Shown here: piece after piece, positions 32,158 through 61,279 of the stretch
How positions within the stretch are numbered: the first letter of the stretch is position 1
Layout: the number at the start of each line of letters is the position of its first letter
Origin: Cytobacillus kochii
GTDB taxonomy: Bacteria; Bacillota; Bacilli; Bacillales; Cytobacillaceae
Direction: 5' to 3'
Assembly (NCBI RefSeq): GCF_020171845.1
Contig: NZ_JAIVAM010000004.1
Location: 1 to 64,000, forward strand
Length of the DNA: 64,000 bases
Program-made: the position numbers and the translations under genes
The notes under the pieces: generated by a model
Seen by the model: only the letters and a program-made list of their open reading frames with translations
Databases searched by the model: none
Told to the model about the DNA's origin: nothing

Positions 32158-34155
32158 ATGTTCAACAAAACAGATGCTTTATCAATTAGTGCCATAAGAA
32201 CATTGTCTATCGATGCAGTCGAGAAGGCAAACTCTGGTCATCCAGGAATGCCAATGGGAGCTGCGCCAATGGCGTATACCTTATGGACAAAGTTTATGAA
32301 TCATAATCCCAAAAATCCTGATTGGTTTAATCGTGATCGCTTTGTGTTATCTGCAGGTCATGGGTCTATGCTTTTGTATAGTCTCCTTCATTTATCGGGA
32401 TATGGTCTTTCTTTAGATGATATTAAAGAATTTCGTCAGTGGGGTAGTAAAACACCAGGACATCCTGAATATGGCCATACACCAGGTGTAGATGCGACAA
32501 CAGGTCCATTAGGACAAGGAATTGCCATGGCAGTAGGGATGGCAATGGCAGAAAGCCACCTATCAGCTGAATATAATAAAGATGGCTACAATGTAGTAGA
32601 CCACTATACATATAGTATTTGCGGAGATGGAGACTTAATGGAGGGAGTGTCTGCAGAAGCAGCTTCTCTTGCTGGTCACCTTCAATTAGGAAAGCTGATC
32701 GTAATGTATGATTCTAATGACATCTCATTAGACGGAGATTTAGATCAATCATTTTCTGAAAGTGTAGCCGATCGTTTTAAAAGTTATGGCTGGCATTATC
32801 TTCGAGTAGAAGATGGAAATAATCTCGATGAAATTGCCCAGGCAATTGACAGCGCTCGTCAAAATACTACACAACCGACGTTAATAGAAGTTAAAACTGT
32901 AATTGGTTACGGATCCCCGAATAAGGCAGGCTCATCTGCTTCTCATGGATCACCACTAGGCTCAGCTGAATTAAAATTAACAAAAGATGCTTATGAGTGG
33001 ACATTTGAAGAAGATTTTCATGTACCTGAAGAAGTATATGCACACTTCAAACAAAATGTAGCTATTAACGGTGAAAAAGCAGATAGTGAATGGAAAGATC
33101 TTTTTGCTGCTTACAAAAAAAATCATCCGGAATTAGCAGAACAGTTAGAAGGTGCAATCAAAGGTGAATTACCAAATGGTTGGGATAAAGATATTCCTGT
33201 ATATGAAGAAGGCAAAAGCTTAGCCACTAGAGCGTCTTCAGGGGAAGCTCTCAATAGTATTGCGAAGAACTTACCATCTTTCTTTGGTGGTTCAGCTGAC
33301 TTAGCAGGTTCGAATAAGACGATGATTAAAGATGCAGAAGACTTCTCAGCAACTAATTATGCTGGTAAAAATATTTGGTTTGGCGTACGAGAATTTGCTA
33401 TGGGTGCCGCTTTAAATGGTATGGCATTACACGGTGGCCTAAATGTTTTTGGAGGGACATTCTTTGTATTCTCTGACTACTTAAGACCAGCTATTCGACT
33501 TGCCGCATTAATGAAGCTACCTGTTACTTATGTTCTTACACATGATAGTATTGCTGTAGGTGAAGATGGGCCTACACATGAACCAGTTGAACAATTGGCA
33601 GCACTTCGTGCCATGCCAAATTTAGCAGTAATTCGCCCTGCTGATGGAAATGAGACTTCAGCTGCTTGGAAGCTAGCGATTGAGTCAAAAGATCAACCAA
33701 CAGCACTTGTGTTAACTAGGCAAAATATTGCTACCCTACCAAACTCAGCAGAGTTAGCCCCTGAAGGAGTTCAAAAAGGTGCTTATGTGATTGCAAAAGC
33801 AGAAAAAGAGCAACCAGATGCGCTTCTTTTAGCGACAGGGTCAGAGGTAGAATTAGCGGTAAAGGCTAAAGCTGCTTTAAAAGAAGAGGGCTTTGATGTG
33901 GCAGTAATCAGTATGCCGGATTGGAAACGATTTGATGCTCAATCAAATGAATATAAAGAATCTGTATTACCTAAAAATGTAACCAAACGTTTAGCCATTG
34001 AAATGGCAGCATCATTTGGCTGGCATAAATACGTCGGTCTAGAAGGCGACGTTTTAGGAATTGATCAATTCGGTGCTTCTGCACCAGGAGATATTCTAAT
34101 AAAAGAGTATGGGTTTACTGTAGAGAATATCGTAAGCAAATTAAAAAGTTTATAA
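32158..34155 (+). CDS. tkt: Transketolase
   Basis: Thiamine-diphosphate transketolase of the pentose phosphate pathway, moving two-carbon units between sugar phosphates. The start at 32158 (MFNKTDALS) is 8 nt after GAAAGGA and gives 665 residues; the ATG three codons earlier overlaps that site. ThDP motif [32 protein letters not shown]; pyrimidine-domain [16 protein letters not shown]; substrate residues in [19 protein letters not shown]. Monocistronic with its own terminator. Confidence 0.97.
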
Positions 34156-34162
34156 GCATGAG

Positions 34163-34193
34163 CGAAGAGGGAATTTCCCTCTTCGTTTTTTTT
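34163..34193 (+). terminator. tkt terminator
   Basis: CGAAGAGGGA pairs with TCCCTCTTCG, followed by an uninterrupted T-run. Confidence 0.92.
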
Positions 34194-34277
34194 CGACAAA
34201 AAAAGTAGAAATTTATAACAAAAAGAGACAGAAAATACTGAAATAAAATTTTATAATAAGAAAAAGACTTGTCTAAA
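34191..34277. promoter_or_regulatory. Spo0A boxes upstream of sirA
   Basis: Read on the minus strand, TTTTGTCGAA at 34191-34200 is a perfect Spo0A box; TTGTCTAAA at 34269-34277 is a one-mismatch box next to the ribosome site. sirA is a Spo0A-activated gene in B. subtilis. Confidence 0.6.
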
Positions 34278-34291
34278 AAAGGAGTAATTCT

Positions 34292-34726
34292 ATGAGAACG
34301 TATCAGCTATATTTAATAGATGAACCTTTTGCGTCTCATTATTTTGGTAGAGAGCAAATGTTTTATCAGCTGTTCAAGGAATATGAACAAGCGACTGGAA
34401 CGATCCAATTTATTTTGGGAAAACAAATTGCCTTTATCACCAAGAATATTCCAAAAGATAAAGTAAATAATGATCTATATAGAGAATTATATGCAGAGAA
34501 AAAAGTTTCTTATAAGAGCAATGCGTTTTATATTAAAGAGAAAAATAGTCAAGCTAAGTTGATGATCTATGATCGTTTTCTTAGTTTAGAGGCTCAAGGA
34601 AACTATGATGCAGAGACGGTGTTCTTTGAAGTCCTACGAAAAGAAGAAAGTTCTTATTTAGCAATCGACCTTTTTCATAATCGATTTGGCTGGTTAAAGC
34701 CAATAAAAGAAAGAAAGTTTGTCTAA
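34292..34726 (+). CDS. sirA: Sporulation inhibitor of replication SirA
   Basis: SirA binds domain I of DnaA and blocks new replication rounds when a cell commits to sporulation. 144 residues, recognisable by MRTYQLYLIDEPFASHYFGREQMFYQLFKEY and the end AIDLFHNRFGWLKPIKERKFV. The ATG follows AAAAGGAG. Spo0A boxes lie upstream. yneF follows 84 bases later with no terminator between them, so the two are probably co-transcribed. Confidence 0.92.
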   Translation: MRTYQLYLIDEPFASHYFGREQMFYQLFKEYEQATGTIQFILGKQIAFITKNIPKDKVNNDLYRELYAEKKVSYKSNAFYIKEKNSQAKLMIYDRFLSLEAQGNYDAETVFFEVLRKEESSYLAIDLFHNRFGWLKPIKERKFV

Positions 34727-34810
34727 ATTAGAGAAAATCATCAGCAAATATTGTATAATAACCTTTGGTCTAGTACACTGTATGATAGACAACATGAAGG
34801 AGGAAGTAGT

Positions 34811-35029
34811 ATGTGGACATATATTCTAGTTGGTATATTAGCATTACTTGCTGGTGTAGCACTAGGATTTTTCATCGCTCGTAAATATATGATGAGCTAC
34901 CTAAAGAAAAATCCACCAATTAATGAACAAATGCTTAAAATGATGATGATGCAAATGGGAATGAAGCCGTCTCAAAAGAAAATTAACCAAATGATGAATG
35001 CGATGAATAAGCAACAACCTGGAAAATAA
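34811..35029 (+). CDS. yneF: UPF0154 membrane protein YneF, 3' end rebuilt by prophage att site
   Basis: 72 residues: one N-terminal membrane helix ([19 protein letters not shown]) and a Met/Lys-rich cytoplasmic tail ([26 protein letters not shown]). The ATG at 34811 follows AAGGAGG. Function unknown; nearly universal in Bacillales. The last 42 codons lie in the left copy (34904-35038) of the 135-bp repeat that bounds the prophage, so the insertion leaves the protein intact. Its native terminator is now at 59.8 kb. Confidence 0.95.
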
Positions 35030-35038
35030 CTTACGAAC
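34904..35038 (+). repeat. Prophage attL: left copy of a 135-bp direct repeat
   Basis: Identical over 135 bases to 59581-59715. It spans the 3' part of yneF, its stop codon and nine bases beyond. Flanking bases differ on both sides at both copies, so these are the exact repeat limits. The crossover point lies somewhere inside. Confidence 0.95.
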
Positions 35039-35173
35039 GTCAGCATATCAAGGGATTGAGCCATTTTTGGAAGACAAATTTTAGTGAAAAAATCATTAAA
35101 AAAACAGCTTAGACTGAAACCTTCTCCCTAAAAAGCGCTCAAAAATGCTTAATCCTTCTCATCTATTTTGCCA

Positions 35174-35239: not shown

Positions 35240-36166
35240 ATGTTGTTTGAAGAGGCATTAGATGAGTATATAGTCCATTGTCTTGCTAGAGGATATACTC
35301 CTAAAACAATGAAAAACAAGAAACAGGAGTACAAACATTTGAAGATTTTCCTAGTAGAAAAGAGGGGTATCAGAGATCTAAAAAACATTACTGACCATGA
35401 TTTGAAATCCTACTTTAGAAAGAAACAGAAGGATGGCTTACAGCCACAAAGTATTGTTTCAATGTATAAGATGATAAATGCCTTCTTCAACTGGTGCGTA
35501 AAAGAAGAGTACATAGAGAAGAATCCGATGGTGAAGGTTGAAAGACCTAAAGAGCCTAAGAAGGTGCTAAATGGGTTCACTGATGATGAAGTCATTGCCA
35601 TGATTAACGCATTCACTACTAAGACCTTCTTAGAGGCTCGGAATAAGGCAATAATCATGATGTTAGCTGATTGTGGACTTAGAGCCATTGAGATAAGAAC
35701 ATTCAAATTGAAGACCCTTCTAGACAAAGACAATATTGTTGTCAACGGCAAAGGTAATAAGGAACGGTATGTGCCTATTACTCCTGCGTTAAAGAAGGTT
35801 TTAATCAAATATGAGCGTATGAAAGAGAAGTATTTCAACGATTGGGTATCTACAGCAGATAACTACTTCCTAAACTACCAAGGGGGAGAAATCTCACACA
35901 CAGCCTTGTACAATGTCATTGTGAAAGCAGGCAAGAGGGCAAAGATAGAAGATGCTAGATGTTCACCACACACATTTAGGCACTACTACGCTGTAAAAGC
36001 CTTATCCAGTGATAAGACTGACCTATATTCTTTATCAAGGCTATTGGGGCATTCGGACGTGTCCACAACACAGAGGTATTTACGGACACTAGATGACAAG
36101 ACATTGACAGAGAAGGCAATAGATATCAGTCCATTAATGAACATGGGCAAGAAGCTTAAAATCTAA
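35240..36166 (+). CDS. int: Phage tyrosine integrase
   Basis: Site-specific recombinase that would insert and excise the element at yneF. The ATG at 35240 follows GAAAGGTGG and gives 308 residues; an upstream in-frame start at 35168 lies in the arm sites. N-terminal SAM-like core-binding domain about 1-100; catalytic domain with R148 (DCGLRAIEIRT), K173 (NGKGNKERYVP), H244 and R247 (SPHTFRHYYAV), H271 (LLGHSDVSTTQ) and nucleophile Y280. All catalytic residues are present. It is in the same direction as yneF, 210 bases on, with no evident terminator between. Confidence 0.95.
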   Translation: MLFEEALDEYIVHCLARGYTPKTMKNKKQEYKHLKIFLVEKRGIRDLKNITDHDLKSYFRKKQKDGLQPQSIVSMYKMINAFFNWCVKEEYIEKNPMVKVERPKEPKKVLNGFTDDEVIAMINAFTTKTFLEARNKAIIMMLADCGLRAIEIRTFKLKTLLDKDNIVVNGKGNKERYVPITPALKKVLIKYERMKEKYFNDWVSTADNYFLNYQGGEISHTALYNVIVKAGKRAKIEDARCSPHTFRHYYAVKALSSDKTDLYSLSRLLGHSDVSTTQRYLRTLDDKTLTEKAIDISPLMNMGKKLKI

Positions 36167-36177
36167 TACAAATAGAA

Positions 36178-36224
36178 AACGCCCTAACCTTTTCAACTTT
36201 GGCGAGATGGAAGGTTAAGGCGTT
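36178..36224. terminator. Hairpin after int
   Basis: AACGCCCTAACCTT pairs with AAGGTTAAGGCGTT around an 18-nt loop. It lacks a T-run, so it may be a factor-assisted terminator or a protein site rather than an intrinsic terminator. Confidence 0.5.
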
Positions 36225-36332
36225 CGGACAAGCCCCAAGTGAACCTTGAGAGCATATGAGTATTATAACATATCCTCTCATTGGCGTTAAGCGCTTGTGT
36301 GCTTTCTGTTCTAATATAGGGGGATATTATTC

Positions 36333-37193
36333 ATGGCATTGGTCAAACGTATACAATTAGATGGCAACTTTTTAATCGTACCAAATGAAACTGCTAGAGC
36401 ATCAGAGGACAGGATTTCTAATGGTGCTTTAGGATTACTTGTCAATATCATGTCCTATTCTGAGGACTGGGAACTACATAAGACTGAATTGTATAAGCGC
36501 TATGCTAAAGATGGCAGAACATCAGTTAAGAATGACTGGAAAGAGTTGACTGAATCAAATTACATTGTTGAATATAGATACCGTTCGGGAAAAAAGTGGG
36601 AGTATGTTTATTATGTTCGGTTACTACCATTTTCCGAAGCAGAAAAGTCTGAGATACTTGATACAGCACGTTCGGAGCATTCGGAAATTTGGGATGTTGA
36701 TTTTGTACATCACAATATGGACAGCCCAAAATCAACAGCTACTAAAGAAGAATTAAAGAAAGAAGAACTAACTAAAGAAAATAATAATAATACATATATA
36801 AATAATATTGATGATGATAAACGAACTCCCCCTTCGGAGGGTTCAGCCGTACATAACGAAGAAAATATTAATATGGTCATTAGTCTATTCCGAGAGCAAA
36901 CCAAAGACGAAATCACAGACAGAAGCTTCAAGTCAGTTGTACGTAAAGTGATAGACAAATATAATCAAGGCAAGGTTGTTAATTTCAGAGATTACTTAGC
37001 TACGTCTCTAGCAAACAAAATTGAGGCTCTGGAGTTGAGGAGAATTAAGGAAGGTGCTAAGTCGGCTTTGGCAGAATCTAAGCGCATTAGGGCATCTGAG
37101 AAGTCTGAGGCATATATCAAGAAAGTTGAGAGACTAGAATCTGATTCAGATTATGTCCGCAGAGTACCATTTTATAATTGGTTGGAAGAATAA
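36333..37193 (+). CDS. Winged-helix replication initiator-like protein
   Basis: 286 residues. N-terminal winged helix about 25-105 (ISNGALGLLVNIMSYSEDWELHKTELYKRYAKDGRTSVKNDW...), as in plasmid and phage initiators of the DnaD/RepA type. An acidic, Asn-rich linker (about 130-180, ENNNNTYINNIDDDKR) follows, then a helical C-terminal domain (FREQTKDEITDRSFKSVVRKVIDKY). The ribosome site is GGGGGA. No helicase or loader is nearby. The stretch coding for the linker is very AT-rich, and three palindromic iterons lie downstream. I infer a replication initiator; a regulatory role is possible. Confidence 0.65.
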   Translation: MALVKRIQLDGNFLIVPNETARASEDRISNGALGLLVNIMSYSEDWELHKTELYKRYAKDGRTSVKNDWKELTESNYIVEYRYRSGKKWEYVYYVRLLPFSEAEKSEILDTARSEHSEIWDVDFVHHNMDSPKSTATKEELKKEELTKENNNNTYINNIDDDKRTPPSEGSAVHNEENINMVISLFREQTKDEITDRSFKSVVRKVIDKYNQGKVVNFRDYLATSLANKIEALELRRIKEGAKSALAESKRIRASEKSEAYIKKVERLESDSDYVRRVPFYNWLEE

Positions 37194-37217
37194 AATTTTT
37201 CTAGGAGGTATTTTAAG

Positions 37218-37364
37218 ATGAAGAATGTTCGCAAGATTACAGGTGACCAAATGGATGATCTCATGGATTATTTATCCCATGAAGAAGAACGTACTGGATT
37301 ATCCTTAGAAGAAACTGGTCTTTATGCAGTAATTAAATTCAAAGGTGGTACAATTTTTCTGTAA
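37218..37364 (+). CDS. Small acidic protein, probably frameshifted
   Basis: 48 codons (MKNVRKITGDQMDDLMDYLSHEEERTGL...) with a good ribosome site (GGAGGT, 8 nt). The frame ends at TAA 37362-37364, straight after a run of five T. In the -1 frame the sequence continues as VTEDIITLAKELDIPIFK to 37417. One lost T in the homopolymer would explain this. It may be a broken gene, a base-call error or a slippage product. Unknown family; follows the replication gene by 24 bases. Confidence 0.55.
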   Translation: MKNVRKITGDQMDDLMDYLSHEEERTGLSLEETGLYAVIKFKGGTIFL

Positions 37365-37509
37365 CAGAGGATATTATCACACTTGCAAAAGAATTAGATA
37401 TACCTATCTTCAAATAAGCCTCTAGAAGCCGTTTTAAGCCATGCTAGGTTGAAAGGGAAATGTTCTAGGAGTTTCGTAGAAGCGATCTGAGAGCGATTCT
37501 AGAAGTATG

Positions 37510-37704
37510 AGAGGTATTTAACGAGCCTTATAAACACAAATAACGAGTATTTGTAAATCAATTTATGAAATTATCGTGTAAAGTAGGTGTCGTGGGAAAG
37601 AGTGTCTGAAATGAGACACTTCTTCCCACGCCTCAAGAAAAAGTGTCTGAAATGAGACACTTCTTCCCACAGGTTATGGGAAAGAGTGTCTGAAATGAGA
37701 CACC
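37510..37704. repeat. Three palindromic iterons: candidate plasmid-type origin
   Basis: AGTGTCT-N6-AGACACT occurs at 37601-37620, 37642-37661 and 37685-37704 (last base differs), with the same N6 (GAAATG), at steps of 41 and 43 bases, close to four helical turns. The first copy is the centre of a 40-bp near-palindrome (37591-37630). AT-rich sequence lies immediately to the left (37510-37590). The position between a replication-type gene and a resolvase gene suggests an origin or an operator array. Confidence 0.6.
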
Positions 37705-37708
37705 ATTG

Positions 37709-37801
37709 TAGACTATTAGGAAATGATTAAATTAACGTCTATAAATTGTGTGTAAATGTATTTTACGAACGTCTACTTAATAATTGACTTTTATAGACGT
37801 T
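37709..37801 (+). promoter_or_regulatory. Candidate res site and promoter of the resolvase gene
   Basis: Two inverted repeats of resolvase subsite size: TAGAC...GTCTA spans 37709-37741 (33 bp) and AACGTCTA...TAGACGTT spans 37768-37801 (34 bp), sharing the half-site AACGTCTA. The second overlaps a sigma-A promoter: TTGACT (37784-37789), 18 bp, TATAAT (37808-37813). Binding there should repress the resolvase gene. Confidence 0.6.
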
Positions 37802-37845
37802 TTTTATTATAATCTTCTCAGATAGTAAATGAGAGGATGATTCAA

Positions 37846-38457
37846 ATGACAGGAATTAATTTTGGATATGTTCGTGTAAGTTCTACAGGTCAACACTTAG
37901 ACAGGCAGTATGAAGCACTCACGCAATACGTTACAGAAGATAGGTACATATACAGTGATAAGGCAAGTGGTAAGGATATGGAGCGTGAAGGATTTCAGCA
38001 AATGCTTAAGGCTATGAGAAAAGGTGATACATTATATATTAAGTCCATAGATCGCCTAGGTCGTAACAAAGAACTGATTAAGCAGTACCTAGAGTACTTT
38101 AAGCAGGAAGGTATAAGGGTTAAGATACTGGACTTACCAACTACAATGCAGGATGTGGCAGAGGGTCAAGAGTGGGTCATTGACATGATTAACAACATTA
38201 TCATTGAAGTATATACATCTATTGCACAGCAGGAACGTGAGACATTATTGCAGAGACAATCAGAAGGCATTGCATCAGCGCACAAAAGAGGCGTTAAGTT
38301 TGGTCGTCCAGTTCTTGAGTTACCTAATGATTGGGCAAAGTATTATAAGCAATGGAAAGCTAAAGAGATTAAAGCTGTGGACTTTATGAAGCTTGTTGAT
38401 ATGAAGAAAGCAACGTTCTATAAGAAGGTAAAAGAATATGAAGATAGTTTGAAATGA
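37846..38457 (+). CDS. Serine resolvase/invertase
   Basis: A 203-residue small serine recombinase. The start at 37846 (MTGINFGYVRVSS) is 9 nt after GAGAGG; the ATG at 37837 directly abuts it. Catalytic Ser12 and Arg10 lie in YVRVSS, with IDRLGRN and the long E-helix EVYTSIAQQERETLLQRQSEGIASAHKRG; the C-terminal HTH is VDFMKLVDMKKATFYKKV. Its upstream region has res-like subsites. In a circular replicon it would resolve multimers; inversion or a res-linked function cannot be excluded. A terminator follows at once. Confidence 0.88.
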   Translation: MTGINFGYVRVSSTGQHLDRQYEALTQYVTEDRYIYSDKASGKDMEREGFQQMLKAMRKGDTLYIKSIDRLGRNKELIKQYLEYFKQEGIRVKILDLPTTMQDVAEGQEWVIDMINNIIIEVYTSIAQQERETLLQRQSEGIASAHKRGVKFGRPVLELPNDWAKYYKQWKAKEIKAVDFMKLVDMKKATFYKKVKEYEDSLK

Positions 38458-38459
38458 TT

Positions 38460-38488
38460 GTTGGAGAAAATTTTTCTTCAACTTTTTT
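38460..38488 (+). terminator. Terminator after the resolvase gene
   Basis: GTTGGAGAAA pairs with TTTCTTCAAC, followed by six T residues. Confidence 0.85.
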
Positions 38489-39300
38489 ATTTTGTTCTGG
38501 AAAAAATCTGGGGGTATATTTCAAAATTTCAAAAAAATCCAATGGGGAGTACAACAATTATTTTTATCCCATATTCCCTTGTAACAATTTACGCAAACTT
38601 ACTGGAGGGACACGATGTCTCTATAGTAACAGATCAGTATAGATGCTATATTTTATTTAATAATAACCCTCCGAAACATTCGCAACTGACTTCTGAAACT
38701 TACTACCAAAACCAATTTTAATCCGAGTTTCTTCTATTATATATACCACCAAATACTACACAAATCATTAGCCCATCACCCACAGCCAATTAACATTCTT
38801 TAGTGGGTCAACCACTCTTTAAAATATGACGATCTTCATAATATAAATATGTCTAAGACACAATTAGAAAAACAACATAAAACACCTGCTGAAATTTGCA
38901 ATGAATAATAAATCACCCATAAAATCAAATCTAATTTCGCCACAGAGCCAATCTCAAGCATGAGGTTTGTTCTTTTTGCCTTCCGAATCATTCGCAACCT
39001 CTAAATGTAGACCATCTATATTAAAAACGCACATCTTACGCCTCGCATTCGCTCACATATCGTACAACCTTTTACAGACACTATTGTCCAAAACTTTGTC
39101 CAAAACATAGCCATCTCTCCCCCCTTCCGAATCACTCAGGACTACTTTTGTCCAAAGTATCGTTCAATAGTGGGGTAAAAACTCAAGCCAAAAAGTGTTT
39201 CTCTATGTCTTCAACCTCATTCCGTTTCTCAATCAGTATTAAGTAATAGCGAATTACAAGTTACTGAATTATTGAGACGGAAAGAAGGTGGTTTGTTGCC
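38489..39300. other. Non-coding gap before terminase: candidate packaging region
   Basis: About 800 bases without a convincing gene where a small terminase would be expected. It contains dispersed repeats: TTGTCCAAAAC at 39084-39094 and 39096-39106, with TTGTCCAAAG at 39148-39157; and CCGAAxCATTCGCAAC near 38671 and 38983, with a partial copy at 39123-39137. These could be binding sites for packaging or replication proteins. Confidence 0.5.
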
Positions 39301-44814: not shown

Positions 44815-46368
44815 TTGGCGCTCTATATAAAACGTAATGATACACATGATGTTATTCAATACAAAATTGAAGGCATGGATTTAACAGGTGCTACTACACG
44901 CTTCTTCATGGAGCATATCAAGAGTGGCAAGGTAGTATCAAATGCAAATGCAGAAATTGTAGATGCGAAAAATGGCTTGATACAGTATACCTTAACTGAA
45001 ACTGACACAGTTTTAGCAGGAACTCATCGTGCTGAGTTTGAGGTTGTTTTTGATGATGGTAAATTCAAGACATATCCAAGCAAAGGATACATTCGTTTAG
45101 AACTAGAAGCGAATATCAACAAAGACAAGTCAACTCACATAGAAGAAAAAGTAGCCTTACATGTCTCTGAAATTAGTGTTTTTAAACAAGAGGTAAATAA
45201 AGTCTTAGATGAGAAATTAAAAGTTGTTTTAGAGGCTAAGCGAGGATATTCCAAAGGATACTTGATAGAGAACTTCTCAAATTTTACTGAATGGAATCTG
45301 CAAGGTGGCACAGCCAAGGAGATTGATTCTGTAAATGTTAAATCAAGCAAGTCTTCTATTAAATTAATAGCTGATGGAGTACCTACATTTATCAGAACAA
45401 CCAGAGCATTTGACTTTAAGGGAACTAAGATGTTCAAACTTTCTATTTACGTTGATAATCCTAGCGCAGTTAATAAGATCTCTCTGTATCTTGCAAATGA
45501 CACAACATATGAAAACTTCTTTATGAAGGTTATAAAAGGAACAGGTTTAAACAAGGGTTGGAATGAGATTCTGATTGATACTGCTCATATGTCTGCAACT
45601 GGTGCGCCTTCTCTTGACAATAAGGTTCAATCCATTCAGGTAAGGATTGACCCAACAACAGGTATGAATGCATCTTTGACCTTTGATGCATTGATTAGAG
45701 ATGAGAAGCAACGTCCTAAAATCATCTTTACAATGGATGATAACTGGATTAGCCAGTATACAGAAGCATATCGCATTATGAGAGAAAAGGGTTTCAGAGG
45801 AACGATTGCAGTTATTCCTACAAAAGTAGGAGAAGCAAACTACATGAACCTTTCTCAACTTCAAGATATATACAACAGTGATTGGGATTTAGTAAACCAT
45901 ACGAATACACACATCAGACTCGGTGATTCAACACGAAAAGTGCAGGAATCAGAATTATCTATTACTACTCAATGGTTAGATAACAATGGTTTCACAAAAG
46001 CATCTGATATCGTTGTTTATCCATATGGTTCATTTAATGATGACACTATAGATATTATCAAAAATATATATCGTGCAGGTCGCTCAATAGTAGATCAAAT
46101 AGAAACTACGCCACCACTTGATATAACCAAGGCGAAAGTCAGAAATTTAACGCAATCTATCACTGCCCAACAGGCTAAAGATTGGATTGATGAGGCTATA
46201 GCTACAGGAGGCACTGTAATCTTCTTGAATCATAGATTTGGAGATGAAGTTGACTCTATGTTCTTTGGCGTAAGTAAGTTTCAAGAATTAGTTGATTATG
46301 CTTTTGAACGAAAGTCTGATATTGACGTAGTTACCTATTCTGAATGGCTTGATAGCTTTGGTGGATGA
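44815..46368 (+). CDS. BppU-like N-terminus fused to a polysaccharide deacetylase domain
   Basis: 517 residues. Residues 1-100 (ALYIKRNDTHDVIQYKIEGMDLTGATTRFFMEH...RLELEANI) match the BppU N-terminal domain of baseplates. A short helix (about 110-140) and a beta-sandwich module (about 150-295) follow. From about 300 there is a NodB/CE4 deacetylase domain: FTMDDNW carries the Asp pair (family form TFDDG) and LVNHTNTH the H-T-x-x-H metal motif (about 361-367); VVYPYGSFNDDT and VIFLNHRFG complete it. Such enzymes deacetylate wall or capsule glycans. The position between capsid and connectors is unusual for a baseplate-type protein. Confidence 0.85.
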   Translation: MALYIKRNDTHDVIQYKIEGMDLTGATTRFFMEHIKSGKVVSNANAEIVDAKNGLIQYTLTETDTVLAGTHRAEFEVVFDDGKFKTYPSKGYIRLELEANINKDKSTHIEEKVALHVSEISVFKQEVNKVLDEKLKVVLEAKRGYSKGYLIENFSNFTEWNLQGGTAKEIDSVNVKSSKSSIKLIADGVPTFIRTTRAFDFKGTKMFKLSIYVDNPSAVNKISLYLANDTTYENFFMKVIKGTGLNKGWNEILIDTAHMSATGAPSLDNKVQSIQVRIDPTTGMNASLTFDALIRDEKQRPKIIFTMDDNWISQYTEAYRIMREKGFRGTIAVIPTKVGEANYMNLSQLQDIYNSDWDLVNHTNTHIRLGDSTRKVQESELSITTQWLDNNGFTKASDIVVYPYGSFNDDTIDIIKNIYRAGRSIVDQIETTPPLDITKAKVRNLTQSITAQQAKDWIDEAIATGGTVIFLNHRFGDEVDSMFFGVSKFQELVDYAFERKSDIDVVTYSEWLDSFGG

Positions 46369-48333: not shown

Positions 48334-48636
48334 ATGTCAACAAAAATCGTAGCTGTAGAAGCTGATAAAAATAGACACTTAAAATATGGTGTCAACCAAT
48401 TAATTGAGATTGAAGAAATGCTAGGTCGTTCTGTAACAGAACTTGGAACATCAACAGGCATTAAAGATTTACGTACTATCATGTACGTTGGGTTACGTTG
48501 GGAAGACAAAGAACTTAACGAAGAAAAAACAGGGGACATTATGGATTCCATGATTGAAAAACATGGTATGGATTATGTTTCTGAGAAGCTTGCGAAAGCT
48601 ATGGAGAAGGCATCAAGTAAATCCTTTCCCAGTTAA
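48334..48636 (+). CDS. Tail assembly chaperone, short form (gpG-like)
   Basis: 100 residues from ATG 48334, 8 nt after GGAGGG (a TTG one codon earlier is less well placed). The protein binds tape measure protein during tail assembly. The gene ends TCC TTT CCC AGT TAA; just before the stop, ribosomes can shift +1 on the CCC-A proline codon to give the long form, listed next. Confidence 0.85.
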   Translation: MSTKIVAVEADKNRHLKYGVNQLIEIEEMLGRSVTELGTSTGIKDLRTIMYVGLRWEDKELNEEKTGDIMDSMIEKHGMDYVSEKLAKAMEKASSKSFPS

Positions 48637-48958
48637 GAATGGGAAGCTAGATGTAGATGAAGTTATTAAGACAGGAGCAAGCGTTGGTATCCCTATTTCT
48701 GATATAGGAGAACTAACCTTGGCAGAAATTCTAGCTTACTCAGAAGGTTACCAAGCAAGGCAACGTGACCATTATGAAACGATGGAGTATGTCATTGCCA
48801 TGGGATATGTTTCTGCGAGAAAAGGTAAAATACTCCCTCTATTCAAAAAGGACGAGGGCGATAAACAAGGCAACTCTGGTAAATCTAAAACAAATAGAAT
48901 TACAAAAGAGCAAAGAGAAGCTGAGATTAATGCCTTAACTCAAACATTTGGAGGGTGA
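48632..48958 (+). CDS. Tail assembly chaperone, +1 frameshift extension (gpT-like)
   Basis: Reading continues in the +1 frame from the CCC at 48628-48630: ...SKSFP then VKNGKLDVDEVIKTGASVGIPISDIGELTLAEILAYSEGYQARQRDH.... It has no ribosome site or sensible start of its own. The composite gpGT-like protein would be about 208 residues. Position before the tape measure gene and the overlapping frames match programmed frameshifting in siphophages. Confidence 0.75.
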   Translation, partial: VKNGKLDVDEVIKTGASVGIPISDIGELTLAEILAYSEGYQARQRDHYETMEYVIAMGYVSARKGKILPLFKKDEGDKQGNSGKSKTNRITKEQREAEINALTQTFGG

Positions 48959-59532: not shown

Positions 59533-59580
59533 TAATGGTTGGATTTTTCTTTTACATAACACTCAAACCCTTGGGAGAGT

Positions 59581-59706
59581 AAGAAAAATCCACCAATTAA
59601 TGAACAAATGCTTAAAATGATGATGATGCAAATGGGAATGAAGCCGTCTCAAAAGAAAATTAACCAAATGATGAATGCGATGAATAAGCAACAACCTGGA
59701 AAATAA
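59581..59706 (+). pseudogene. Orphan 3' fragment of yneF
   Basis: Encodes the last 41 residues of YneF in frame with its stop (59704-59706) but with no start or promoter. It is a by-product of att-site duplication, not a second gene. Confidence 0.95.
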
Positions 59707-59715
59707 CTTACGAAC
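59581..59715 (+). repeat. Prophage attR: right copy of the 135-bp direct repeat
   Basis: Perfect copy of 34904-35038. It marks the right end of the element and joins it to chromosomal sequence that originally followed yneF. Confidence 0.95.
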
Positions 59716-59797
59716 TATAGTTAGATAAAGTTACTAGGTTCAATTGCATATAGATAGAAACAGAGCAAACTTTATTTTTCGGTTCTTCATTGCAACT

Positions 59798-59840
59798 AAG
59801 AAATAGACCAAAGCTAAACTTTAGCTTTGGTCTATTTCTT
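59798..59840. terminator. Displaced sirA-yneF terminator
   Basis: A perfect 21-bp stem with a single central base (59798-59818 with 59820-59840), AT-rich at both outer ends, so it can act on both strands. It lies 92 bases past the yneF fragment's stop. Before the insertion it would have ended the sirA-yneF unit; now it also faces the Spo0E-like gene on the minus strand. Confidence 0.85.
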
Positions 59841-59905
59841 TAGTCGGTATCATATTGTTGAATTCTTTGATATCAAGTTACTTGATAAATCCAAGTGTTA
59901 GCCTT

Positions 59906-60085
59906 TTATGCTTGTCTATTTAATGTGAGTCTGCTCTCGTAAAGACGATTATATTCATTTAATAGAGAATCTAACTCCTGACTATATTTTATGGCAGAAG
60001 TAGAGTTGAGGCCGTTTCTCATAGCAGTTTGAATCAGTTCTCGTCTTTTTTGTTCAATTAATAATAGTAAGTCTTGTTTGTTCAC
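59906..60085 (-). CDS. Spo0E-like aspartyl-phosphate phosphatase
   Basis: A 59-residue frame from a GTG at 60085, with GAGGAG about 10 nt upstream. The product (MNKQDLLLLIEQKRRELIQT...GLNSTSAIKYSQELDSLLNEYNRLY) is a two-helix protein with the family motif SQELD. Spo0E, YisI and YnzD of this family dephosphorylate Spo0A~P and hold back sporulation. It lies next to the prophage and on the opposite strand to sirA-yneF. Classification is from the motif and size only. Confidence 0.8.
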   Translation of the reverse strand: MNKQDLLLLIEQKRRELIQTAMRNGLNSTSAIKYSQELDSLLNEYNRLYESRLTLNRQA

Positions 60086-60388
60086 GCACCTAAAACTCCT
60101 CTGCGATTTTGTCTAACCATGAAGTAGTTTCTATTTTGTCCCAAATATACTTTTATTAATTATAGCGAATTATGGTAATTAATTCAAAAGAAACTTATGT
60201 AAAACTTTTTACATTCATTATACATATCACTAAATGATTCAACGAAATTGATACAATGTCGAAATAAAACTGGTGTTTACCATGTGTGTTAAATGTTAGA
60301 CACAAATTATTCAAAAAGATTAATTTCTTTTCTCATAATGTTTTGATAGAATGGGGAAGGAAAAAGGGGAAGGTATGGAGGTGTTGGT
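60086..60388. other. Divergent intergenic region before ccdA
   Basis: About 300 bases between the Spo0E-like gene and ccdA; it must hold both promoters. ATGTCGAAA near 60256 resembles a Spo0A box. No strong promoter pair was assigned. Confidence 0.4.
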
Positions 60389-61096
60389 ATGACTGATGTG
60401 AATTTTATTATTGCTCTTGGTGCAGGTTTTTTGAGTTTCATCTCGCCATGCTGCTTACCATTATATCCGGCATTTTTATCGTATATCACTGGAATGAGCG
60501 TAGGTGAATTAAAAACGGAGAATGCACTGCTACAAAAACGTAGTTTGATACATACGCTATGCTTTTTATTAGGATTTTCAATAGTGTTTATTGCCATCGG
60601 CTTTGGTTCTTCTTATATAGGTAACTTTTTTTATGAATATGCTGATCTCATCCGTCAAATTGGAGCCATTTTTATCGTTATATTTGGTCTAGTGATCTTA
60701 GGTTTACTTAAGCCAGCATTCTTAATGAAAGAAAGGAGATTTGATTTTAAAAATCGACCGACTGGTTACTTCGGTTCAGTTTTAATAGGTTTAGCCTTTG
60801 CTGCTGGTTGGACACCTTGCTCTGGACCTATTTTAGCTTCAGTTATTTTACTTTCAGCGACAAATCCCGGATCTGGTTTATTTTATATGATTGCCTATAT
60901 TATTGGCTTTGCTGTGCCATTTTTAATATTGTCTTTCTTTATCGGTAAAATGAAATGGATTAAAAAACATAATGTAAAGATTATGAGAATTGGTGGGATT
61001 TTAATGATAGTAATGGGTGTCGTCTTGTTTTTTGATTGGATGACTGATATAATCTCCCTCCTCACTATGTTGACAGGTGGTTTTACTGGTTTTTAA
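60389..61096 (+). CDS. ccdA: Cytochrome c biogenesis thiol-disulfide membrane protein CcdA
   Basis: 235 residues, six membrane helices. Carries reducing equivalents from cytoplasmic thioredoxin across the membrane for cytochrome c maturation and for sporulation (via StoA). The redox cysteines are in helix 1 ([17 protein letters not shown]) and helix 4 ([17 protein letters not shown]). ATG after ATGGAGG. It lies upstream of yneI and yneJ, as in B. subtilis. Confidence 0.96.
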
Positions 61097-61279
61097 CAGT
61101 GATAATTGGATTAAAAAGTGAGGATAACTCGCTTTTTGATCCTTGCGAAAATTGTCGTTGGGTTTAAATTGAAATTATTAGAAAAATTAGATATATTGTA
61201 ATGAGGATATTACTTTGAAATCAAAGTAGTTCTGTAATATGAGATGTTGTAGCGGATGTGTTTGGAGGAGGAATAATAG

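Follow-up and report, generated by a model that had tools for sequence, protein, structure and literature searches.

In the staphylococcal plasmid pSK41, the rep ribosome site becomes hidden through the action of RNAI, an antisense RNA of ∼83 nt with two stem-loops. The Rep of pPR9 has the pSK41 C-terminal domain fused to a phage-like N-terminal one; this plasmid, whose upstream control region is 99 % identical, replicates autonomously (PMC5703833). In the excerpts considered here, the same 2017 review describes such RNA control as apparently absent from RepA_N plasmids of other genera (PMC5703833), and a 2021 paper holds it to be possibly universal for the RepA_N family (PMC8129170). Elements that live both integrated and as circles are, from the portions of the literature consulted, already known: the siphophage-like pLUSID3 of B. 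thuringiensis HER1410 has been reported in circular form as well as inserted at a single chromosomal position (PMC7466992), and integrated relatives of P1-like phage-plasmids have been described (PMC10879196). Here we analyse a 64,000-nt stretch of Cytobacillus kochii (contig NZ_JAIVAM010000004.1, positions 1–64,000; hereafter the window), a Bacillaceae-type chromosome region with lexA, tkt, sirA, yneF and ccdA (names by eye, SirA by Pfam), in which an integrated siphophage-like element carries an initiator gene (rep) and a serine resolvase gene. Its replicon combination is a variant of the elements just mentioned, and none with the same replicon was among the open-access literature matches listed (titles and abstract starts).

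An initial annotation, made from the sequence alone, had proposed a plasmid-like maintenance cassette within a phage. Judged from homology, the cassette is indeed real and of plasmid descent, a replicon and dimer-resolution system inside the integrated element: relatives of Rep are found on circular plasmids, and both the rep control region and the resolution (res) site are homologous to plasmid ones. We consider that the whole is probably an integrated phage-plasmid-type element, possibly decayed, with a pPR9/pSK41-like replicon, which would have a dual lifestyle, integrated and as a free circle.

A chimeric initiator and its relatives

The 286-aa open reading frame (ORF) of rep was confirmed as the winged-helix initiator-like gene described initially. 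Comparison of domains indicates that Rep is a chimera, in which an N-terminal winged helix in common with p9912D (NZ_CP017776, B. velezensis) is followed by the C-terminal domain that RepA_N initiators of plasmids have. Over 123 aa, the C-terminal part shows 63.7 % identity to the 'replication initiator protein A' (RepA_N) of the Peribacillus plasmid pC (L001), with conserved columns in an alignment of nine sequences, where this strongly conserved domain is joined to differing N-terminal domains. The N-terminal part is 43 % identical to the p9912D Rep, which has no match in the Rep C-terminal domain, and is similar as well to replication proteins of phages, for example TP901-1 (36 % over 27 %). 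It matches neither PF13730 nor the RepA_N N-terminal domain PF06970 (no match at E ≤ 1), the latter being matched by the pC and L003 Reps. Searches of Pfam and NCBIfam with the whole protein gave nothing useful, whilst PHROGs returned unnamed families and a phage DNA-binding family, the N-terminal domain resembling PHROG_1456. An alignment profile including Rep found the DnaD C-tail (E 0.0019, versus only 0.36 for the single sequence).

The predicted structure comprises a winged helix and a helical domain, in a weak model (mean predicted local distance difference test score 63.9, predicted template modelling score 0.37) for which Foldseek found nothing at E ≤ 0.001. Structure comparison of the N-terminal domain gave modest values, with primosomal DnaB best (Z 8.1), followed by a RepA of the pSK41 kind (Z 6.9); ribosomal-protein matches over the helical C-terminal half were taken as chance. 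Winged-helix regulators also appeared among the weak structural matches, as they might if the protein were a transcription factor and the palindromes downstream of its gene were its operators. This alternative is very improbable, although the initial annotation had named a transcription-factor family as a refuting case: the sequence relatives are annotated as replication initiators, and both the best N-terminal structural matches and the DnaD C-tail argue against it.

Rep matches fell on 22 plasmid records and 14 phage records; relatives occur in 16 of 193 genomes of the family (own genome included) and, in named genomes, at five loci. The closest relative found (54 % identical in its best segment, residues 1–239, and 53 % overall) is encoded on a 7,707-bp contig of Peribacillus simplex whose 100-bp exact end repeat makes it a probable 7,607-bp circle; this encodes a phage-integrase-family recombinase, and no phage structural gene was recognised by eye. 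The p9912D record is circular, of 35.4 kb, and holds ParA, terminase, tail genes, holin and amidase. Circular relatives were found among plasmid records, one of them a phage-plasmid, and the relatives are not all strictly integrated phages, the other refuting case named initially. In the IMG/VR viral contigs the single Rep sequence found no match and the Rep alignment found 22 loci; a large terminase (phrog_2) was present in 10 of the 18 records with Rep relatives examined, with some bias given that this is a virus collection. One record (L098) holds rep, an actin-like gene (PF17989) and a GH25 lysin and is therefore another probable phage-plasmid. No exact end repeat of more than 11 bases was found in six IMG/VR records (G197, G199, G200, G203, G206 and G209), nor any end repeat on an 18-kb contig of G030; in G197, 25 20-mers are common to the first 300 and last 600 bases.

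Three further observations concern these relatives. Loci L080 and L081 combine an integrase, a Rep with the same C-terminal domain and capsid-like and tail-tube-like genes, and look satellite-like. The Heyndrickxia plasmid L003 (NZ_CP079723) looks like two diverged tandem copies of an integrase-rep-resolvase unit. Reps of this otherwise Bacillota family are found on a 'Pectobacterium' phage (L004, OR599646) and an 'Aeromonas' plasmid (L013, NZ_KP738729), for which the host labels may be wrong.

The rep leader, the palindromes and res

The initial annotation contained nothing on the rep leader, in which we identified a probable antisense-RNA control region (36172–36290; Table 1). When compared by blastn with 7.3 Gb of plasmids, the leader had a single significant match, namely the pC rep leader (E 3e-10, 84 % identity across 69 nt), whilst the four remaining plasmid rows had E 7, and the same search of phages gave nothing significant (best E 2). 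The segment 36170–36256 folds at −31.8 kcal/mol (z −4.3). On the antisense strand an unbroken 15-bp stem using G-U pairs is present in both the window and pC, whereas the sense strands are mismatched at different places (antisense versus sense, −22.2 versus −19.7 kcal/mol in the window and −21.5 versus −15.0 in pC); the folded antisense strand therefore seems to be the conserved form. The predicted antisense promoter ranks second to the resolvase promoter among nine promoter-like sites in 3.2 kb, and a 10/12 promoter lies at the matching place in pC (2736–2707). Taken together, an antisense RNA of ∼84 nt probably controls rep from the leader, and if real it would extend pSK41-like control of a RepA_N-related replicon to the Bacillaceae.

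Other rep relatives also have leader hairpins and A-runs by eye. Our terminator scan accepted loops of 3–8 only, and thus did not list the antisense hairpin. Across 397 genomes of the order (≤ 3 mismatches), the leader hairpin was exact in the window and matched with three mismatches in three genomes, which share one sequence and have no rep among the ORFs there; a reversed control pattern matched two genomes once. No exact copy was present in the IMG/VR viral contigs. A relaxed Rfam search of the leader returned PK-repBA (E 0.0022, 28 bits versus a gathering score of 45) and, on the opposite strand, a CopA-like match (E 0.17) that likewise fell short of its gathering score. We do not claim a pseudoknot, as PK-repBA stayed below its gathering score and no complementary downstream loop was seen.

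Downstream of rep, the initial annotation had described three phased palindromic iterons. The palindromes themselves stand, as three identical 18-bp copies of GTGTCTGAAATGAGACAC with 6-bp inverted arms (at 37602, 37643 and 37686; steps of 41 and 43). With one mismatch allowed, GTGTCT-N6-AGACAC has three matches in the window (shuffle mean 0.08; none of 100 shuffles reached three), and these are the only copies in the 4.97-Mb assembly. Over 41 nt, identity to copy 1 drops to 85 % for copy 2 and 68 % for copy 3, and identical cores within diverged copies suggest selection on the palindrome core. Their role as Rep iterons is not supported. Palindrome 3 shares 16 of its 18 bases with the left part of the 26-bp res subsite III, such that counting three iterons and a res counts one place twice. 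Palindromes 1 and 2 were not found elsewhere: there was no exact copy in IMG/VR viral contigs, no blastn match of 37560–37730 to plasmids, and no similar palindrome downstream of 14 rep relatives, although L086, L007, L003 and L004 have other palindromes.

In the relatives, moreover, iterons lie inside rep. By eye, those with a close N-terminal domain have 14-bp iterons (three in p9912D, two in L086), with GACCTCAAAATGRA visible in L005 and L086 and less clearly in L091; relatives with other N-terminal domains have 23-bp iterons there, of which L014 holds three copies. In a test of internal repeats against codon shuffles, L003 beat 60 of 60, whilst the window value was reached by six of 60, its motif being degenerate. 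With the palindromes unsupported and the rep-internal iterons degenerate, no origin was located. No exact DnaA box was found near rep (one-mismatch boxes numbered three in 34.9–39.4 kb and 75 in 64 kb), and no dif-like target in the window.

The serine resolvase with a res-like region proposed initially was borne out by a catalytic domain and a three-subsite upstream res. The three subsites align upstream of eight such resolvases, the window's included, and named plasmids carry three of these. At its centre, subsite III has GTACAC in the other seven elements and GAGACAC in the window. Half-sites in the window number eight (three inside palindromes) versus a shuffle mean of 1.57 (0/500). This count was clear in five of the eight elements (≤ 1/500 shuffles) and not in L078, L079 and L152 (30, 37 and 79/500).

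Table 1. Coordinates of the features discussed, as positions in the window
Feature	Position	Strand	Remarks
attL	34904–35038	+	Copy of the yneF 3′ end; yneF left intact, about 34811–35029
Tyrosine integrase	35240–36166	+	PF00589, E 6.5e-25; adjoins attL
Predicted antisense RNA, ∼84 nt	36172–36255	−	Opposite rep leader; two stem-loops; hairpin 36225–36177 with TTTTC at 3′ foot
Predicted antisense promoter	36262–36290	−	TTAACG-17-TATAAT, TG before −10; 10/12
rep	36333–37193	+	286-aa chimeric initiator; winged helix about 30–121, RepA_N C-terminal domain about 160–286
rep linker	36693–36752	+	Place of 14-bp iterons (GACCTCAAAATGRA) in close relatives; degenerate resemblance here (by eye)
Small ORF, 48 aa	37218–37364	+	With ribosome site; apparently shortened by frameshift
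Palindromes 1 and 2	37602–37619, 37643–37660	+	Protein-binding-like; not found in relatives
Palindrome 3 and res	37686–37801	+	Palindrome 3 37686–37703; III 37688–37713; II ∼37733–37770; I ∼37768–37801
Resolvase promoter	37784–37813	+	TTGACT-18-TATAAT; 11/12, best of region; overlapped by res I
Serine resolvase	37837–38457	+	PF00239, E 4.8e-30; 81.5 % identical to resolvase of plasmid pJ45TS6
Stretch with no recognised gene, 843 bp	38458–39300		Separates resolvase and terL; possible late-promoter or packaging region
Siphophage late module	39301–59358	+	terL, portal, MuF-like minor head, scaffold, capsid, connectors, tail tube, tape measure, Dit, Tal, fibres, holin
attR	59581–59715	+	Displaced chromosomal yneF 3′ end; from 135-bp repeat and G035 empty site

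Integration at yneF and the late module

The exact ends of the element, which the initial annotation had not given, are fixed by attL and attR, two identical 135-bp copies of the yneF 3′ end in direct orientation, and by an empty site in the congener G035. In the latter a single 3.1-kb stretch aligns to 33403–35043 (95.7 %) and 59580–61201 (92.3 %), such that both flanks are contiguous with the repeat as overlap, and the element therefore spans 34904–59580, or 24,677 bp. The attL stretch has a single match in 29 of 36 genomes of the genus, and a partial second yneF copy lies further along in G018, G019 and G020. Integrase relatives (E ≤ 1e-80) occur in 15 of the 193 family genomes, own included, and the integrase adjoins yneF in all six other genomes checked (G018, G064, G128 and G148 from ORF maps, G019 and G020 from coordinates). 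An adjoining integrase, direct repeats and an empty site in a relative thus all place the element at the yneF site. As first described, the integrase precedes the cassette and the packaging genes follow it; the terL-to-holin region provides virion and packaging genes (terL, portal, capsid, tail and holin).

Of the cargoes that this integrase subfamily brings to yneF elsewhere, one (L067) is by eye a phage, and four (L066, L072, L073 and L074) are islands in which no phage structural genes are evident. This would suit a composite, in which integrase, rep and resolvase came from a yneF island or small integrative plasmid that had merged with the late region of a defective prophage, the two never being one working unit, as would the unexplained gene-free stretch between resolvase and terL and the fact that no early phage genes were recognised. 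We regard such a composite as unlikely: the recognised genes all run in the same direction within one att pair, the holin gene ends 222 bp before attR, and a similar rep and phage genes occur together in p9912D and in the L098 record.

Several features of this region were noted in passing. Between the capsid and connector genes, 44815–46365 encodes a polysaccharide deacetylase fused to a BppU-like N-terminal domain, and the product of 48554–48955 matched nothing. After rep the only further candidate ORF with a ribosome site is that of 48 aa, part of a small gene (37218–37420) apparently split by a frameshift in a T run; its first part had no relative among the loci collected, except copies of the window itself. 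Within the gene-free stretch, about 28 bases at 38718–38746 (GAGTTTCTTCTATTATATATA core) are about 88–100 % identical in many Bacillus plasmids and genomes, sometimes inside tyrosine recombinase genes. A 20-base repeat (CCTTCCGAATCATTCGCAAC-like) has three copies there (38667, 38979 and 39123), and repeated GTCCAAAA units lie within an imperfect inverted repeat at 39080–39172, in the part before terL in which one would expect a packaging site or the gene for a small terminase.

A probable phage-plasmid-type element compared with known systems

A number of observations weigh against a phage-plasmid. The assembly contains a single rep, which lies within a contig of 520 kb, with no sign of a free copy, and the Rep C-terminal domain is found also in phages (PcaP2EGY, L095 and L106) and integrated satellite-like elements, so that Rep alone is no proof of plasmid life. 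No GACCTCAAAATGRA iteron lies within three mismatches in the window rep, and with degenerate internal iterons the origin may have lost its function or altered its specificity. Nine promoter-like sites in the region of rep are no more than expected by chance (shuffle mean 12.3), and an antisense promoter scan in L098 found none. No small terminase, endolysin, repressor, excisionase or partition protein was recognised among 23 proteins scanned, from ORFs of about 60 aa or more; these gaps count against the phage-plasmid, the missing partition gene lowering that claim without closing it.

A leader hairpin as such is not peculiar to plasmids. A generic test found a minus-strand terminator-like hairpin in all 15 rep leaders, three phage ones included, and at −11 kcal/mol both strands passed in 18 of the 152 leaders of a control set that was not free of rep leaders. 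Only the plus-strand hairpin was missing from the three phage relatives and L015, and the minus-strand ones speak against the idea that phage relatives lack a leader hairpin. This test being non-discriminating, the antisense claim rests on the homology to pC and the strand-specific stem; its result slightly lowered our confidence in a phage-plasmid and slightly raised that in a prophage.

Much of this would fit an ordinary or defective temperate prophage, replicating with the chromosome or in lytic growth only, whose Rep would be a DnaD-like initiator for the lytic phase and whose resolvase and leader would be remnants. The likeness of the Rep N-terminal domain to TP901-1 and PHROG_1456, the phages that carry the C-terminal domain behind a leader with a minus-strand hairpin, the missing lysis, lysogeny and packaging genes, the single integrated copy and the degenerate iterons all agree with it. 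Set against this are a leader that is homologous to a plasmid rep leader, has no significant phage match and keeps its stem on the antisense strand, the nearest Rep on a probable circle with no phage structural gene seen, and the retention of a res that aligns to plasmid sites. We therefore hold such a prophage to be a substantial but lesser possibility.

For the phage-plasmid-type element that we favour, whose initiator is of plasmid type given its homologues among plasmid Reps and a leader homologous to that of a plasmid rep, the following course can be proposed. The tyrosine integrase would insert the circle at the yneF 3′ end, leaving yneF intact as the att repeats and empty site indicate. 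In the circle, as in its homologues, Rep would bind the origin through its N-terminal winged helix and recruit the host primosome through its C-terminal domain. The antisense RNA would pair with the homologous leader and lower Rep output as copies increase, like pSK41 RNAI. The resolvase may act on the III-II-I res upstream of its own gene to resolve dimers, and the terL-to-holin module may build siphovirions. With no partition gene recognised, stable inheritance probably comes via integration and the plasmid state may be transient; with small terminase, endolysin and repressor missing, the phage cycle would be partly decayed or helped by another phage. A more speculative version, which we think rather improbable, is a compact phage-plasmid shuttling between yneF and circle, whose antisense RNA also silences the integrated origin, Rep output being held down until its release after excision, copy control replacing the phage repressor.

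The element would thus have, in the place where a siphophage usually keeps its repressor and recombination genes, a plasmid replicon under antisense copy control and a means of resolving dimers, and yet a fixed att site. It offers a testable system for how an integrated plasmid origin stays silent and, even if inert, would record a phage-plasmid becoming a resident prophage.

Among known elements, p9912D shares the Rep N-terminal domain and a siphophage-type late module with PBSX-type terminase, Dit and holin, but has ParA and amidase, and its leader is not matched by that of the window. pLUSID3, in the part of its description considered, differs in its size (38 kb), its integration at flgK and its cro/cI-type regulators. 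Plasmid pC (Peribacillus sp. R9-11, NZ_CP133766, 41.8 kb) shares the rep-leader hairpin and, at 64 % identity, the Rep C-terminal domain; unlike the window it has a RepA_N N-terminal domain, ParA and conjugation-like genes, and none of the annotations in the 23.7 kb viewed is of a phage structural gene. The resolvases of pJ45TS6 and Priestia plasmids are 68–82 % identical and have the three res subsites in the same order, whereas in the window the left part of subsite III falls in the palindrome array. The window differs from pPR9 and pSK41 of Staphylococcus in its Bacillaceae host, a Rep N-terminal domain outside PF06970 and PF13730, degenerate iterons and integration with a phage late module. 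With these two, as far as the excerpted account describes them, it has in common the two-module Rep (in pPR9 a phage-like N-terminal and plasmid C-terminal domain), an antisense RNA, predicted in the window, like the ∼83-nt two-stem-loop RNAI about 100 nt upstream of the start region, and a leader helix able, in the window by computed fold, to hide the ribosome site of its own rep.

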